From Rubrivivax sp. (GTDB lineage: Bacteria; Pseudomonadota; Gammaproteobacteria; Burkholderiales; Burkholderiaceae_C): DNA of 64,000 nt. Below are positions 38,187 to 44,512 of this stretch, one piece after another (position 1 is the stretch's first letter; each line of letters begins with the position of its first letter). The translations under genes and the position numbers were made by a program. The stretch is from positions 1-64,000 of the forward strand of contig JAHBZS010000003.1 in the NCBI GenBank assembly GCA_019635285.1. Direction: 5' to 3'. The notes beneath the pieces were generated by a model. That model was not told the DNA's origin. It worked only from the letters and a program-made list of their open reading frames with translations, and searched no databases.

Positions 38187-39635
38187 TCAGCCTCGCGCCG
38201 GGAAGATGCTCTTCTTCACCAGCGCATGCACGCCCCAGTTGCCGTCGACCACCTGCGTGATGCCGAAGTCGACCGCGATGGACATCAGCGAGATCGCCTC
38301 GTCCTCGGAGAGGTTCTGCGTGGTCATCAGGAAGTGGCGCATCTTGTGATACGCGTCGCGCAGCGCCTTGTCGACCGAGGACTTCTTGTAGATCTCGTTC
38401 TGCGCGTCCGCGCCCAGCTCGGCCAGGTAGTTGGCGTAGCTGAAGCCGTGCAGCAGCCACTCGTCCTGCGTTTCCAGCAACGGGTACTTCAGTTCTGCCA
38501 ACGGCGTGCCGGGCAGGCTGGCCTTCTTGTGCAGGATGAACTGGAAGGTGCCGGTCAGCGAACATTCGATCGCCGTGCCGCACAGCTCGGAGTCGCCCTG
38601 CGACGCATGCGGGTCACCGACCGAGAACATCGCGCCCGCCACGGCGACCGGGTAGTACAGCGTCGCGCCTTTGCCGATGCGCCAGTTGTCGATGTTGCCG
38701 CCGGTGTAGTTGGGCGGGATCGAGGTCACCAGCTCGGCCTCGGCCGGCGCCACGCCCATCGTGCCGAAGTGGGGCCGCACCGGGATGCGGATGTTCTGCA
38801 GCACGTTCTCGTTCTTGGTGATGGTCCGGTGGTCCACCGGCACGCCTGGATAGTCGATCGTCGGATGCACGACGCCGAACGGATCGGTCTGCGGCGTCCA
38901 GCGGAAGTTGTAGACCGCGCGGGCCCAGTTGCGTTCGCCGGTGGCGTCGACCTCGTAGATCGTCACCACCTCGCGCTTCTTCGGCTCGGTCAGCGTGTCG
39001 CCGTAGTGGAAGCCCCAGTTGGCCGCGGCGTTGCTGCCGAAGGTCTTGCCCTTGAAGCGGGGGTTGCCGCTCGGGCGCGGCACGCAGTCGATGATGCGCA
39101 CTTCCAGGATGTCGCCCGGTTCCGCACCCTTGATGCGCACCGGCCCCGTGCACACGTGCACGCCCTGCCCGCCGCCGGCGCCCACCTTGGCGTCCATCGG
39201 CCCGACCCCGCGCCGGTTGATGCCCTTTCGCGTCGCGTCCCAATAGAAGACGCTTTCCGCGCCCGGGTCGCCCTTGACCATGCGTTCGGCGTCGTCGTTG
39301 GCATGGTGGGTCAGCGTTTCGATCGTCGCGTAGTCGCCCGACTCGACCTCGACCACCGGCTTGGCCGACTTGCTGAAGTAGCCCCACAGCACGGTGTTGG
39401 CGTTGGCGGGAATGAAGTAGTGGCTGGCCATGCCCTGGCCGGGCGTGGCGCTCTGCGCAAAGGCCCGAGGCGCCATCGACACCCCCAGCGCGCCGACCGA
39501 CACGGCCCCGCCGCCGGCGACCATGGCATCACGCAGGAACGAGCGGCGCGCGGTCTTGAACTCTTCCTTGACGTCTTCTTCGGCTTCCGGTGTGACGCCG
39601 TGGACGCAGCCGGGCCCGCAGATGTGCTTGAGCAT
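38187..39635 (-). CDS. Acetamidase/formamidase family protein, Tat-exported
   Basis: The 482-residue protein has a twin-arginine signal (ARRSFLRDAM followed by a hydrophobic AVSVGALGVSMAPRAFAQS), so the folded enzyme is probably exported. It then has a FmdA_AmdA domain with GDPGAESVFYWD, HVCTGPVRIKGAEPGDILEV, FGSNAAANWGFHYGDTL, ASQGDSELCGTAIECS and QVVDGNWGVHALVKK. The family hydrolyses formamide, acetamide or related short amides to ammonia and an acid, supplying nitrogen. The start is ATG 39635. The paralogous amidase domain of the divergent gene shares these segments. Confidence 0.9.
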   Translation of the reverse strand: MLKHICGPGCVHGVTPEAEEDVKEEFKTARRSFLRDAMVAGGGAVSVGALGVSMAPRAFAQSATPGQGMASHYFIPANANTVLWGYFSKSAKPVVEVESGDYATIETLTHHANDDAERMVKGDPGAESVFYWDATRKGINRRGVGPMDAKVGAGGGQGVHVCTGPVRIKGAEPGDILEVRIIDCVPRPSGNPRFKGKTFGSNAAANWGFHYGDTLTEPKKREVVTIYEVDATGERNWARAVYNFRWTPQTDPFGVVHPTIDYPGVPVDHRTITKNENVLQNIRIPVRPHFGTMGVAPAEAELVTSIPPNYTGGNIDNWRIGKGATLYYPVAVAGAMFSVGDPHASQGDSELCGTAIECSLTGTFQFILHKKASLPGTPLAELKYPLLETQDEWLLHGFSYANYLAELGADAQNEIYKKSSVDKALRDAYHKMRHFLMTTQNLSEDEAISLMSIAVDFGITQVVDGNWGVHALVKKSIFPARG

Positions 39636-39825
39636 GGGTTCACTCCTCCTTGGTGGTTGACGACCGGCGCAGCCGCGCCGGCCTGGTCGCCAGTGTTCGA
39701 CCGCTGGCCAGGTTTGGCCTTGTCGGAGGGCGCACAAAAACTTGTAGGCGTGCCGGCGGATACGCACGCGGGCGGGCGGGCGCATAGCATCCGCCGGGTC
39801 ACCCGAGACTGCCGAACGGACCTGC
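39636..39825. promoter_or_regulatory. Divergent promoter region of the two amidase genes
   Basis: This 190-bp gap separates the two oppositely directed amidase genes and must contain both promoters. It includes GAGTGAACCC-side ribosome-site sequence (AGGAGGAGTG on the minus strand before ATG 39635) and a GCCAGTG...CTGGCCAGG inverted arrangement near 39690-39712. The AraC-type domain encoded next door is the obvious candidate to bind here. No site could be assigned with confidence. Confidence 0.4.
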
Positions 39826-42279
39826 ATGCTGGACGACGTGCGACGTTTCTCGACCAACGCCTATCCCGAAGACTTGCGTGCCTCGGCCTGGGCGGACGTG
39901 CTGCTCATGGCACTGATCGGGCGCGCCACGGACACGCCTGCGTTGCCGCCGCTGGAAGGCTATGTGTCGTCGCGCACGTCGGCGCTTGGATCGGTGTTCA
40001 TGACGTTGGCGTCCTCGCCGCAGGTCTGGACGCCGCATGCCGCGAGCGCGCTGCGTGCGGGCGGCGCCGTGCTGGTGCTGGCGCTGCTGGAAGGCCGGGC
40101 GCAGGTGACCGAAGGCGATGAATCGATCGCGCTGGCCGCCGGCGGCATGGTGGTGCTCGAACCGACGCGACGCTGGCGCGTGTTGCTCGAGACCGCGTTC
40201 CGCGCGGTGGTGGTCAAACTCGAATCGGCAAGTTTCCTCCGCCGACTGGTGCGCACCAGCGGGCAGGACCTGAACCAGATCTCGTCGCGCAGCGGTGTCG
40301 GCGCGGTGTGCATGAACCTGGTGCGTTCCGTCAGCGAAGAGCTCGACCGGCTTGCCGGGCCCGACCTGCTGCCCATCGAGGCGACGCTCAATGAACTGCT
40401 GGTCAGCTGCCTGTCGCACCGCGGCGCGCAGAAGACGGAAGACTCGACCTCGGTGCAGCTCGGCCATCTGCGGCGCGTCTGCCGCACCATCGAAGCGCGG
40501 CTCGGCGACGCGGAGCTGACGGTCGACCACATCGGCGAGCTGGAGGGCTTGTCGACGCGCTACGTGCAGAAGCTCTTCAAGGGCGGTTCCACCACTTTCG
40601 GCGAGTACCTGAAGGAGCGCCGGCTCGAGCGTTGCCGCATCGACCTGGCCAATCCGGCGCTGGCTCACTTCACCATCGCCGAGTTGTGCTTCCGCTCGGG
40701 CTTTGGCGATGCGGCCAACTTCAGCCGCGCCTTCACCGCTCGCTTCGGCGTCTCGCCCAAGGCCTATCGCGCCGCACCGCCCCAGCCTGGCGCTGCCCCA
40801 GCGCCGTTGCAGCGGGGCCGGCCAGACGACGGGGCATCGCGCAGACCGGTGAACGCGATGCCTGCGCCGGTGGCGACGCAGGACGACGAGGTGCGGCGCA
40901 GCGAATTCCAGCAGGTGCTGGGTGACCATGCACGCTATGTCGTCGCGCTGGCGCTGGCGCCGAAGCGGGCGGTGTCGTCACGGCCCACCGAGTCGGCGGG
41001 GGGCGATCTGCCGCACCACTACTACCTGCCCGTGTCCGACAAGACGGTGCACTGGGGTTACTTCAGCCGCCACCTGAAGCCGGTGATCTCGCTGCGCTCG
41101 GGTGACATCGTGACGATGGAGACGCTGACGCAGCACGCGTCGGACGACCACGAGCGCATGATCGCCGGCGACCCCGGCGCCGAGAGCGTGTTCCACTGGA
41201 CGGCCCGGCAGAAGAACATCGACCGCCGCGGCGCAGGCCCGATGGACGCCAGCATCTTCGGGCGCGGCGCAGGCGAAGGCTTCGGCGTGCACGTCTGCAC
41301 CGGCCCGGTGCTGGTCCACGACGCCGAGCCGGGCGACGTGCTGGAGGTGCGCATCCTGGACATCCGCACGCGCCCGAGCTGCCACGCGAAGCATCTCGGA
41401 CGCGCGTTCGGCAGCAACGCTGCCGCGTGGTGGGGCTATCACTACCACGACCAACTCACCGAGCCGAAGAAGCGCGAGGTGGTCACGGTCTACGAAGTCC
41501 ATGCGGCAGACGACGAGCCCTACGCGAAGGCGGTCTACAGCTTCCGCTGGACGCCGCAGACCGATCCCTTCGGCGTGGTGCATGCCACCATCGACTATCC
41601 CGGCGTCGTCGTCGACCCGACGACGGTCGATCGCCGGTACGGCGTCTTGGCCAAGGCGCATGTGCCCATTCGTCCGCACTTCGGCGTGCTGGCCGTCGCG
41701 CCGCGCGAGAGCGGCATGGTCGATTCGATCCCGCCGGCCTACTTCGGCGGCAACCTCGACAACTGGCGCGCGGGCAAGGGCGCCCGGCTGTACCTGCCGG
41801 TGTCGGTGGAAGGCGCGCTGTTCTCGGCCGGCGACCCGCACGCCTCCCAGGGCGATTCGGAGGTCTGCGGCACCGCCATCGAGTGTTCGCTGACCGGCGT
41901 GTTCCAGCTGGTGCTGCACAAGCGTCGTGATCTGGGGAACAGCTTCCTGGCCGACCTCAACTACCCGTTCCTGGAAACCGACGACGCCTGGGTACTGCAG
42001 GGATTCAGCTTTGCCAACCACCTGGCCGAACTGGGCACCAACGCGCAGACCGAGGTCTACAAGAAATCGTCGCTCGACCTGGCGATGCGTGACGCCTTCC
42101 GCAAGGCGCGTCGCTACCTGATGAAGGCGCACGAGCTCGACGAAGACGAGGCCGTCTCGCTGATCTCCGTGGCCGTGGACTTCGGCGTGACGCAGGTCGT
42201 CGATGGCAACTGGGGCGTGCACGCGGTCATCAAGAAAGCGATCTTTCCCGACTACGACGGGACCGTCGTCGCACCCTGA
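39826..42279 (+). CDS. AraC-family regulator fused to acetamidase/formamidase
   Basis: One uninterrupted 817-residue frame encodes two complete proteins. Residues about 1-200 resemble the AraC-binding-like sensor of NitR/FeaR-type regulators. Residues about 211-316 form the double helix-turn-helix (LTVDHIGELEGLSTRYVQKL and FTIAELCFRSGFGDAANFSR, ending FGVSPKAYR). A Pro/Ala-rich linker of roughly 75 residues follows. Residues 394-817 are a full FmdA_AmdA amidase (GDPGAESVFHWT, FGSNAAAWWGYHY, ASQGDSEVCGTAIECS, QVVDGNWGVHAVIKK). Unlike its divergent paralogue it has no Tat signal, fitting a cytoplasmic DNA-binding enzyme. Substrate-coupled control of the adjacent amidase is the simplest idea. 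I know no described protein with this fusion. Confidence 0.9.
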   Translation: MLDDVRRFSTNAYPEDLRASAWADVLLMALIGRATDTPALPPLEGYVSSRTSALGSVFMTLASSPQVWTPHAASALRAGGAVLVLALLEGRAQVTEGDESIALAAGGMVVLEPTRRWRVLLETAFRAVVVKLESASFLRRLVRTSGQDLNQISSRSGVGAVCMNLVRSVSEELDRLAGPDLLPIEATLNELLVSCLSHRGAQKTEDSTSVQLGHLRRVCRTIEARLGDAELTVDHIGELEGLSTRYVQKLFKGGSTTFGEYLKERRLERCRIDLANPALAHFTIAELCFRSGFGDAANFSRAFTARFGVSPKAYRAAPPQPGAAPAPLQRGRPDDGASRRPVNAMPAPVATQDDEVRRSEFQQVLGDHARYVVALALAPKRAVSSRPTESAGGDLPHHYYLPVSDKTVHWGYFSRHLKPVISLRSGDIVTMETLTQHASDDHERMIAGDPGAESVFHWTARQKNIDRRGAGPMDASIFGRGAGEGFGVHVCTGPVLVHDAEPGDVLEVRILDIRTRPSCHAKHLGRAFGSNAAAWWGYHYHDQLTEPKKREVVTVYEVHAADDEPYAKAVYSFRWTPQTDPFGVVHATIDYPGVVVDPTTVDRRYGVLAKAHVPIRPHFGVLAVAPRESGMVDSIPPAYFGGNLDNWRAGKGARLYLPVSVEGALFSAGDPHASQGDSEVCGTAIECSLTGVFQLVLHKRRDLGNSFLADLNYPFLETDDAWVLQGFSFANHLAELGTNAQTEVYKKSSLDLAMRDAFRKARRYLMKAHELDEDEAVSLISVAVDFGVTQVVDGNWGVHAVIKKAIFPDYDGTVVAP

Positions 42280-42306: not shown

Positions 42307-42383
42307 TGGTAGGCCGTGCTGGGCTCGAACCAGCGACCAAAGGATTATGAGTCCTCTGCTCTGACCAACTGAGCTAACGGCCC
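42307..42383 (-). tRNA. tRNA with CAU anticodon (tRNA-Ile2 or elongator Met)
   Basis: The minus strand reads GGGCCGTTAGCTCAGTTGG and continues to an anticodon arm GGACTCATAATCC. The T arm is CTGGTTCGAGCCCAG and the acceptor ACGGCCT is followed by A and an encoded CCA. The 7-bp acceptor pairs except for a terminal G-T wobble. The TTTGGTCGCTGGTTC stretch resembles bacterial tRNA-Ile2, whose CAU is modified to lysidine, so I favour Ile over Met. Confidence 0.9.
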
Positions 42384-43504: not shown

Positions 43505-44380
43505 ATGCCGATGCGTTTTCGTCATGCTGCGATCGTGGGCAAGTACCAGGCCCAAGGCATCAAGCCGCTGCTCGAGGACATCGCCGGCTTCCTGCTGCGC
43601 CTGGGGCTGGAGGTATCGCTCGACGCCGCCACCGCGCTCAACACCGGCATCACCGACCACGACGCGCTGTCGCCGGCCGAGATGGGCCGGCGCTGCGACC
43701 TGGCGGTGGTGGTCGGCGGCGACGGCACGATGCTCGGCATCGCGCGCGAGCTGGCGCGCCACAACCTGCCGCTGGTGGGCATCAACCAGGGGCGGCTGGG
43801 CTTCATCACCGACGTGCCGCTGTCCAACTACCGCGAGACGCTGCAGAGCATGGTGGCCGGCGACTACGAAGAAGAGCACCGCACGATGATCGAAGGCGGC
43901 GTCTGGCGCGACGGCGAGAAGATCTTCGACGGCCTGTCGCTCAACGAGGTGGTGGTCAGCCGCGGCGCCACCGCCAGCATGGTCGAGCTGCGCATCGACA
44001 TCGGCGACGAGTTCGTCGCCAACCTGCGCGCCGACGGGCTGATCATCGCCTCGCCCACCGGCAGCACGGCCTATGCGCTGTCGGCCGGTGGGCCGATCAT
44101 GCACCCCGGCATCAGCGGGCTGCTGGCGGTGCCGATCGCGTCGCACACGCTGTCCAACCGGCCGATCGTGCTGCCCGACCAGCAGGAGATCCGCGTCGAG
44201 GTGGTGGCCGGGCGCGACGCGTCGGCCAACTTCGACATGCAGAGCCTGGCCAGCCTGCTGCACGGCGACCAGGTGCGCGTGCGCCGCTCGGCGCACAAGG
44301 TGCGCTTCCTGCACCCGCGCGGCTGGAGCTACTACGCCACGCTGCGGCGCAAGCTGCGCTGGCACGAGGGCGTGGTGTGA
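43505..44380 (+). CDS. nadK: NAD kinase
   Basis: The 291-residue enzyme contains the NAD-kinase motifs [31 protein letters not shown] and [17 protein letters not shown]. It phosphorylates NAD to NADP with ATP or polyphosphate. ATG 43505 gives the normal family start ([14 protein letters not shown]). Divergent from hrcA; a REP-like hairpin region separates it from recN downstream. Confidence 0.95.
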
Positions 44381-44460
44381 CCCCCCCCGTAGCGCCTTCG
44401 GCGCTACCCCCCAGGGGGGCGACGCCAGCGGACCGGCAAAGCCGGATCCGCGGCGCCTGC
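44381..44460. repeat. REP-like extragenic hairpin cluster after nadK
   Basis: Three palindromic elements lie in a row directly after the nadK stop: GTAGCGCC-TTC-GGCGCTAC (44389-44407), CCCCCC-A-GGGGGG (44407-44419) and CCGGC-AAA-GCCGG (44433-44445). The first can act as a terminator. The composite resembles extragenic palindromes that I recall as common after genes in Comamonadaceae and Rubrivivax relatives. Confidence 0.6.
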
Positions 44461-44512
44461 TGGGTGACGTCGCCAAGCATCTTCGCGTCGCGCCTCGACG
44501 TGGGGCATTGAG

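Follow-up and report, generated by a model that had tools for sequence, protein, structure and literature searches.

Proteins that combine an enzyme with DNA binding have well-known representatives: PutA is a "trigger enzyme", and Ada joins an AraC-type helix-turn-helix (HTH) to a methyltransferase in one protein. The subject here is another such combination, an AraC-type regulator fused to an acetamidase/formamidase (FmdA) domain, encoded at positions 39826-42279 (+ strand) of a 64,000-nucleotide stretch of DNA from Rubrivivax sp. (assembly GCA_019635285.1, contig JAHBZS010000003.1, positions 1-64,000; "the window" in what follows). Like PutA and Ada it unites enzyme and DNA binding in one polypeptide, and like Ada it is of the AraC type, but the enzyme, the substrate class and the domain order are different, and its predicted target encodes a paralogue of its own enzyme domain. 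The reading that we favor, and to which we give an even chance of being right, sees in the protein an AraC-type activator dedicated to an amide-utilisation unit, which has acquired a near-copy of FmdA as its amide receptor.

One-component AraC/XylS regulators of the AraC_binding_2 type have the same sensor and double HTH, and a direct-repeat site beside the promoter; they end after the HTH, where the fusion carries an extra enzyme domain of 415 residues. That domain resembles PF03069 proteins, and the nearest structure, 3b9t of Methylobacillus flagellatus, over its whole length (62-63% identity) and in its polar invariant motifs; it differs in lying C-terminal to a DNA-binding regulator, in having Q rather than H at position 436 (78 of 81 fusions), and in having no preceding signal peptide. 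The closest described principle is that of BzdR, a repressor in which an XRE-type HTH is joined to a shikimate-kinase-like domain, 23% identical to shikimate kinase and without detected kinase activity (PMC3602430). Both proteins couple a DNA-binding domain to an enzyme-derived effector domain; the fusion differs in retaining an entire AraC regulator, sensor included, and an FmdA domain that is (in the window) 56-66% identical to close-type stand-alone FmdAs with its polar motifs intact. For amide utilization itself the nearest precedent is the fmdCABDEF cluster of Methylophilus methylotrophus, described as an amide-induced formamidase with a short-amide porin, ATP-binding cassette (ABC) uptake and a separate putative positive regulator (PMC10781810). 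The operator described below likewise precedes a porin-type gene (three loci) and ABC-FmdA operons (many loci), but here the regulator is the AraC-FmdA fusion.

A description of an AraC-acetamidase/formamidase fusion was not found in the literature searched, which was judged mostly by titles and the openings of abstracts and included few subscription journals; a domain listing without a study is possible. Papers that bring together AraC and formamidase, or AraC and acetamidase, announce no such protein in their titles or the openings of their abstracts (PMC13296017 is unrelated). The fusion is neither an artefact nor unique; what is new is the system around it, its partner and its operator.

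The fusion gene, its distribution and its origin

The gene specifies 817 residues, from ATG to TGA, with no internal stop. The original prediction had proposed such a single AraC-FmdA frame, and the open reading frame (ORF), Pfam and the one-ORF architecture of relatives (below) bear it out; no stop or frameshift lies at the domain junction. From the N-terminus the protein consists of a cupin-like AraC_binding_2 sensor (residues 75-196; 40048-40413, + strand; Pfam 45.8 bits), an AraC-type double HTH (residues 241-316; 40546-40773, +; HTH_18 60.5 bits, HTH_AraC 33.8 bits), a variable linker (residues 317-394; 40774-41007, +) with a helix predicted at 352-376, and the FmdA_AmdA domain (residues 395-809; 41008-42252, +). 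The Pfam match of the last covers residues 488-806 at 95.1 bits (the cutoff is 27), and each of the four Pfam models scores above its gathering threshold. Alignment with stand-alone FmdA begins at residue 364 and with PDB 3b9t at residue 384, so that the extent of 394-817 first assigned to this domain was about right. In the 81 fusions that were compared, 23 columns within residues 239-316 of the HTH are at least 95% conserved. The double HTH together with a ligand/dimerization domain, found in both Pfam and fold matches, places the protein in the AraC/XylS family; its domain score and the polar motifs GGNxD, GDxHxxGDxE and E686 place the fused domain in PF03069; and the presence of enzyme and DNA-binding domain in one protein is, as regards architecture only, that of a trigger enzyme. 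The best NCBIfam match is FeaR, at 99.9 bits against a cutoff of 199, and Ada is a weak match.

An AlphaFold2 model built with 27 fusions (mean predicted local distance difference test score, pLDDT, 76; predicted template-modelling score 0.52) has sensor, double HTH and FmdA domain all folded, with pLDDT of 74-95 in the AraC_binding_2 blocks; its low-confidence parts are residues 321-350, 378-393 and several FmdA loops, that at 673-682 included. In Foldseek, the FmdA half of the model matches acetamidases, 3b9t among them, and the regulator half matches CuxR, CsvR and ToxT: known folds only.

The "Pro/Ala linker" of the original prediction holds for the window and fails for its relatives, in which a long linker of 58-134 residues (roughly delimited), mostly unconserved, carries one invariant motif, RGxP, in 81/81 fusions. 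In the window this reads RGRP (residues 330-333; 40813-40824, +), resembling the core of an AT-hook. As a common linker function, AT-hook binding to the DNA minor groove was rejected, the third residue being R in just 27 of the 81 (W in 27, L in 24, and A, V and Q in one each). An internal start that would free the amidase was also rejected: a Met occurs in the linkers of only 18 of the 81 fusions, with a maximum of three in any column, and there is thus no conserved internal ATG start (GTG and TTG lay outside this test).

A scan of one genome per species yielded 235 relatives, among them members of Aquabacterium, Methylibium, Variovorax, Delftia, Pseudomonas, Paraburkholderia, Caballeronia, Bradyrhizobium, Rhodopseudomonas and Ancylobacter. 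The best 80 by score were kept for detailed study, making 81 loci with the window. AraC and FmdA lie in a single ORF in 80/80 kept loci, a proportion that leans towards full-length matches because the kept loci are the best-scoring ones. The distribution, among some bacteria of soil and water, is rare and patchy: the fusion was found in 7 of 299 sampled genomes of the same family and in 8 of 398 of the phylum (G901 and G944 among them), both of these being lower bounds, since few candidates were scored per genome. None of the homologues examined is split into two genes between its domains; the one that is cut, L095, is cut within the sensor region. This is the copy on a plasmid of Rhizobium johnstonii TP60 (L095:8592-11001), which is annotated in two pieces; its sensor region is cut off, and HTH and FmdA are still joined in one frame. 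A match to the fusion in R. etli begins only at residue 99.

In a tree built from 163 FmdA domains (quick mode, rooted at the midpoint), all 81 fused domains fall on one side of a single branch (SH-like approximate likelihood ratio support 95), and the "fused" state changes once, compared with 54.0 times in shuffles. Distances between AraC halves and between FmdA halves are correlated at r = 0.95, a value equalled or exceeded in 0 of 999 permutations. Because the fused domains constitute one clade and the distances of the two halves go together, the simplest reading of these sequences is one old fusion whose halves have probably stayed together since.

The partner enzyme, the direct-repeat operator and its targets

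The fusion gene of the window is divergent from a gene for a stand-alone FmdA (38187-39635, - strand; identified by Pfam and ORF, with its start taken from the gene caller), which has a Tat-like N-terminus, RRSFLRD, and is the predicted target. A ribosome-binding-site-like GGAGGAG precedes it (39643-39650, -). It is 63% identical to the fused domain, is the only other FmdA that the fusion as query retrieves from its own genome, and also has 3b9t, itself named a Tat-pathway signal protein, as its nearest PDB entry. Of the 81 loci, 63 contain a close-type stand-alone FmdA: upstream on the same strand in 37, divergent in 13, convergent in 12 and downstream in one. Genes were called with a hexamer-based caller, which missed some, and neighbours were identified by Pfam for one member of each cluster and from annotated plasmids. 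In the group that resembles the window, FmdA and the fusion are the only neighbours common to all; in the other large group the unit comprises an SBP_bac_3 binding protein (50 loci), ABC permease/ATPase (51), FmdA, the fusion and a RidA-type protein (26). Nitrile hydratase genes lie near the fusion on a Caballeronia plasmid. Of the partners, 17/62 have a Tat signal by a simple RRx[FL] test, and these belong chiefly to the window-like group.

In the window-like group, the regions ahead of the stand-alone gene have a core of 28 bases in common: GACAAG-nn-TTTGTGCG-n6-GACAAG, a direct repeat of 22-base period. The predicted operator of the window, TACAAG-nn-TTTGTGCG-n6-GACAAG, with the same 22 bases from repeat to repeat, lies at 39719-39746 on the - strand and, read from 39746 to 39719, is the sole match with three or fewer mismatches in the 4.9 Mb of its own genome. 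The original prediction had pointed to 39636-39825 as a target region to be tried, and it is there that the conserved operator is found. The matrix that describes it was built from 14 sites chosen by eye, and it is the leave-one-out and held-out tests that carry weight. In a leave-one-out scan of the 64-kb window the operator scores 42.9 and the next best site 4.4. At a threshold of 17 the operator is present in 60 of the 81 loci (the 14 training loci included), the highest score in reversed loci being 11.4; in held-out loci it is present in 43/62, where 40 column-shuffled matrices give 0.175 on average and never more than 4. Among sampled stretches, it is present in 11/11 loci with the fusion (at least two of which, L154 and L158, repeat L081 and L017 and are not independent) and in 0/19 stand-alone FmdA loci without the fusion (these being stretches of 4.5-5.5 kb, their lack of a fusion judged from the stretches and from few candidates scored per genome).

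What lies behind the operator? The genes following 63 sites encode FmdA (27), an ABC binding protein (27), an ABC permease (3), a porin-type protein (3), nitrile hydratase beta (1) and others (2). The three ABC permeases (recorded as "ABCperm@1021"), together with "L017 -> 175", are probably misses of the gene caller and not odd targets. Where the site precedes FmdA or the transporter binding protein, 2-231 bases separate it from the called start. The porin-type targets are all from Oxalobacteraceae (L022:9181, L023:8777, L024:9266; Porin_4 in the one member tested). In Pseudomonas typographi (L012:4253-8484) the operator precedes genes for nitrile hydratase beta, nitrile hydratase alpha and a beta-N-like protein, and then the fusion, with ABC transporter genes upstream; in L159 it stands directly before the fusion gene itself.

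AraC-class activators bind direct-repeat sites with about two helical turns between the repeats, the second repeat lying near the -35 position. In the window, a -10-like AACACT (39692-39697, -) follows the second repeat by 21 bases; in aligned promoters of relatives an AATAAT or TAnnnT -10-like box follows at nearly fixed distance. The second repeat is thereby placed near the -35 position, a layout which suggests that the fusion acts by activation. That it controls the neighbouring amide unit through the predicted operator is, on the strength of these comparisons, very likely.

Amide receptor or tethered enzyme?

If a separate FmdA usually accompanies the fusion, why is the fused domain kept so like an enzyme? 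Its polar residues common to fused, close-type and other stand-alone domains are retained, E432, the two motifs and E686 included. In GGNxD (residues 641-645; 41746-41760, +), G641, G642, N643 and D645 occur in every domain compared (fused, 81/81; close, 62/62; other stand-alone, 19/19); in GDPHASQGDSE (residues 669-679; 41830-41862, +) the same is true of G669, H672, G676, D677 and E679, while D670 is kept in 80 of 81 fusions (H in the exception) and Q675 in all 81. The fused FmdA domain has a median ratio of nonsynonymous to synonymous substitution (dN/dS; the pairs are not independent) of 0.057; the medians of the partner (0.061) and the HTH (0.070) come close to it, and those of the AraC sensor region (0.226) and the linker (0.40) lie higher. 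Two positions nevertheless set the fused domains apart from their partners: residue 436 is Q in 78/81 fused and H in 62/62 partners, and residue 640, beside GGNxD, is F in 81/81 fused and T or S in 62/62 partners.

What the sequences establish is thus the architecture, the single clade, the partner, the operator and the constraint, and on these one can base the following scheme, in which binding, activation, ligand sensing, passage of the signal through RGxP and catalysis are the steps that we infer. In a single old event a regulator would have gained a near copy of the acetamidase/formamidase under its own control. The resulting protein, a dedicated activator of transcription of the amide-utilisation unit, would bind both direct repeats at the promoter of the stand-alone FmdA gene (in relatives, at that of the transporter-FmdA operon) and, in the presence of amide, would activate that promoter. 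The likely amide receptor would be the fused FmdA domain, with its signal passing by way of the RGxP linker. Three things point to this domain as receptor: near-enzyme constraint despite the existence of a separate enzyme, group-specific residues of which one lies beside a conserved motif, and the invariant linker motif. With a separate FmdA usually present, the fused domain appears more like an enzyme-derived sensor than the main enzyme of the pathway. It would probably still hydrolyse amide, slowly or fully, seeing that the polar invariant motifs are kept, and hydrolysis would end the signal, making it self-limiting. The original idea of a one-protein regulator and enzyme thus survives in that regulator and amidase domain are genuine and conserved; it overlooked the paralogue next door that is the predicted target.

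The fullest form of this proposal is a self-resetting activator: a still-active paralogue of the enzyme that it induces, with the active site as amide receptor and with its own inducer as substrate, of single origin, its operator kept through the proteobacteria while the cargo changes (exported amidase, ABC transporter and amidase, porin, nitrile hydratase). That entire package we put forward tentatively, as somewhat less probable than not.

What of loci in which no partner is adjacent? Nineteen loci are without a full close-type partner; of these, the genomes of eight were searched, and 8/8 hold another FmdA of at least 45% identity (in G962 this is a fragment at the edge of a contig). A more distant type of FmdA lies close by in L027 and L031. 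The notion that the fusion serves as sole amidase where the partner is not adjacent was rejected on these grounds, and a sensing role is favored.

Several observations weigh against the activator with an FmdA-derived receptor. 1) The operator was not found in 21 of the 81 loci (one is a short contig, and two are near misses at 16.9 and 15.0), and three of the 19 control loci contain operator-like sites below threshold (L140:3629, 15.7; L143:1694, 13.4; L136:1147, 12.5). 2) Conservation of the fused domain is less complete outside its polar residues: A534, P658, V659 and L697, nonpolar and conserved in stand-alones, are kept in 86-94% of fusions. It is the reverse test that yields these four, the invariance test with its 97% criterion in fusions being partly circular. 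3) By protein distance the fused domain diverges slightly more rapidly than its partner (median ratio 1.23; means 0.288 and 0.266). 4) The group-specific residues are imperfect markers, position 436 being H in three of the 81 fusions and F640 being found in 3b9t too. 5) The active-site loop, 673-682, is poorly modelled. 6) The AraC sensor, folded in the model, could be the receptor instead. Its divergence in fusions is 0.390 and in ordinary AraC_binding_2 regulators 0.396 (the control consists of 30 stand-alone regulators of this type, orthologues and paralogues mixed, in 124 pairs of matched divergence).

The same control disposes of a candidate argument, that the AraC sensor of the fusions is relaxed (dN/dS of 0.226 as against 0.070 for the HTH): the sensors of the control regulators are equally divergent, and no loss of the sensor's role is therefore claimed. 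The difference resides in the HTH, whose divergence is lower in fusions (0.227) than in control regulators (0.381), in agreement with a regulator tied to one operator.

The main rival takes up the last of these objections. The fusion may be a tethered bifunctional protein, in which sensing of the inducer falls to the ordinary AraC cupin domain, the FmdA domain being carried along as a cytoplasmic amidase of co-regulated dosage; in the window it would be the cytoplasmic companion of an apparently exported FmdA. The intact AraC_binding_2 domain with its well-modelled blocks, the ordinary divergence of that sensor, and the motifs and enzyme-like dN/dS of the FmdA domain all accord with such a protein, and an amide-hydrolysing domain would be useful in P. 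typographi, where the operator leads into nitrile hydratase genes and then the fusion. It is weakened by the separate FmdA in all eight genomes tested, that of P. typographi included, and by the invariance of RGxP in 81/81 linkers, which exceeds what tethering needs. We consider it unlikely, though a serious contender.

A receptor without catalysis, binding amide after loss of turnover, would be the counterpart of BzdR, whose shikimate-kinase-like domain lacks detectable kinase activity (PMC3602430). The usual company of a separate FmdA, the nearly fixed changes at 436 and 640, and a protein divergence slightly above the partner's are what such a receptor might be expected to display; the retention of polar motif residues in 80 or 81 of 81 fusions, a dN/dS as low as the partner's, and the occurrence of F640 in 3b9t argue otherwise and leave it doubtful, behind the tethered amidase. 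Still further down lies subunit exchange, with the fused domain pairing with stand-alone FmdA subunits and reading the abundance of enzyme (feedback) instead of amide. In its favor, regulator domain and enzyme are close paralogues and co-occur, but the stand-alone enzyme of the window and its nearest relatives has a Tat-like signal (17/62 partners by the simple motif) and would be exported, apart from the regulator; moreover, distances of partner and fused domain correlate at r = 0.71, below the 0.95 between the halves of the fusion. We regard it as improbable. An artefact, or chance read-through of two genes, has no observation in its favor and is ruled out for practical purposes by the same single-frame architecture in many genera (80/80 kept relatives), with no conserved internal ATG start.

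If the activator with an FmdA-derived receptor is real, it would provide a clear example of a regulator into which a copy of its target enzyme was built and has since been kept under near-enzyme selection; and with enzyme, sensor copy, operator and many natural variants in hand, the evolution of enzyme into sensor becomes directly testable. The operator would serve as a ready marker of gene sets for amides and nitriles, and possibly as an amide biosensor.

Genomic surroundings and annotation

Downstream of the fusion gene are a tRNA-Met gene (42307-42383, -) and other genes. In three genomes of the same genus without a match to the fusion, sequence is conserved from this tRNA gene onward (75-89% in the longer matches), and between 36000 and 42300 nothing but matches shorter than 100 bases is found. 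The amide pair accordingly lies in a variable region that ends at the tRNA gene, possibly a tRNA-side island; such a location agrees with the patchy distribution of the fusion. Further along, at approximately 44365-44466, is a dispersed repeat with about three dozen similar copies in one genome of the genus (G560) and some in another (G487).

Public annotation tends to miss the regulator half. Among 16 plasmid records with at least 80% of the fusion in one place, 7 are annotated there: six as "acetamidase/formamidase family protein" and one as "AraC family transcriptional regulator".

A distant FmdA-like gene (cluster 7) recurs in six of the loci (L033, L035, L044, L036, L048 and L075) and in five of them adjoins a gene that, judged by eye, is SDR-like. 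One of the six, L035, has an extra operator-like site, scoring 17.7, 252 bases upstream of the FmdA-like gene.

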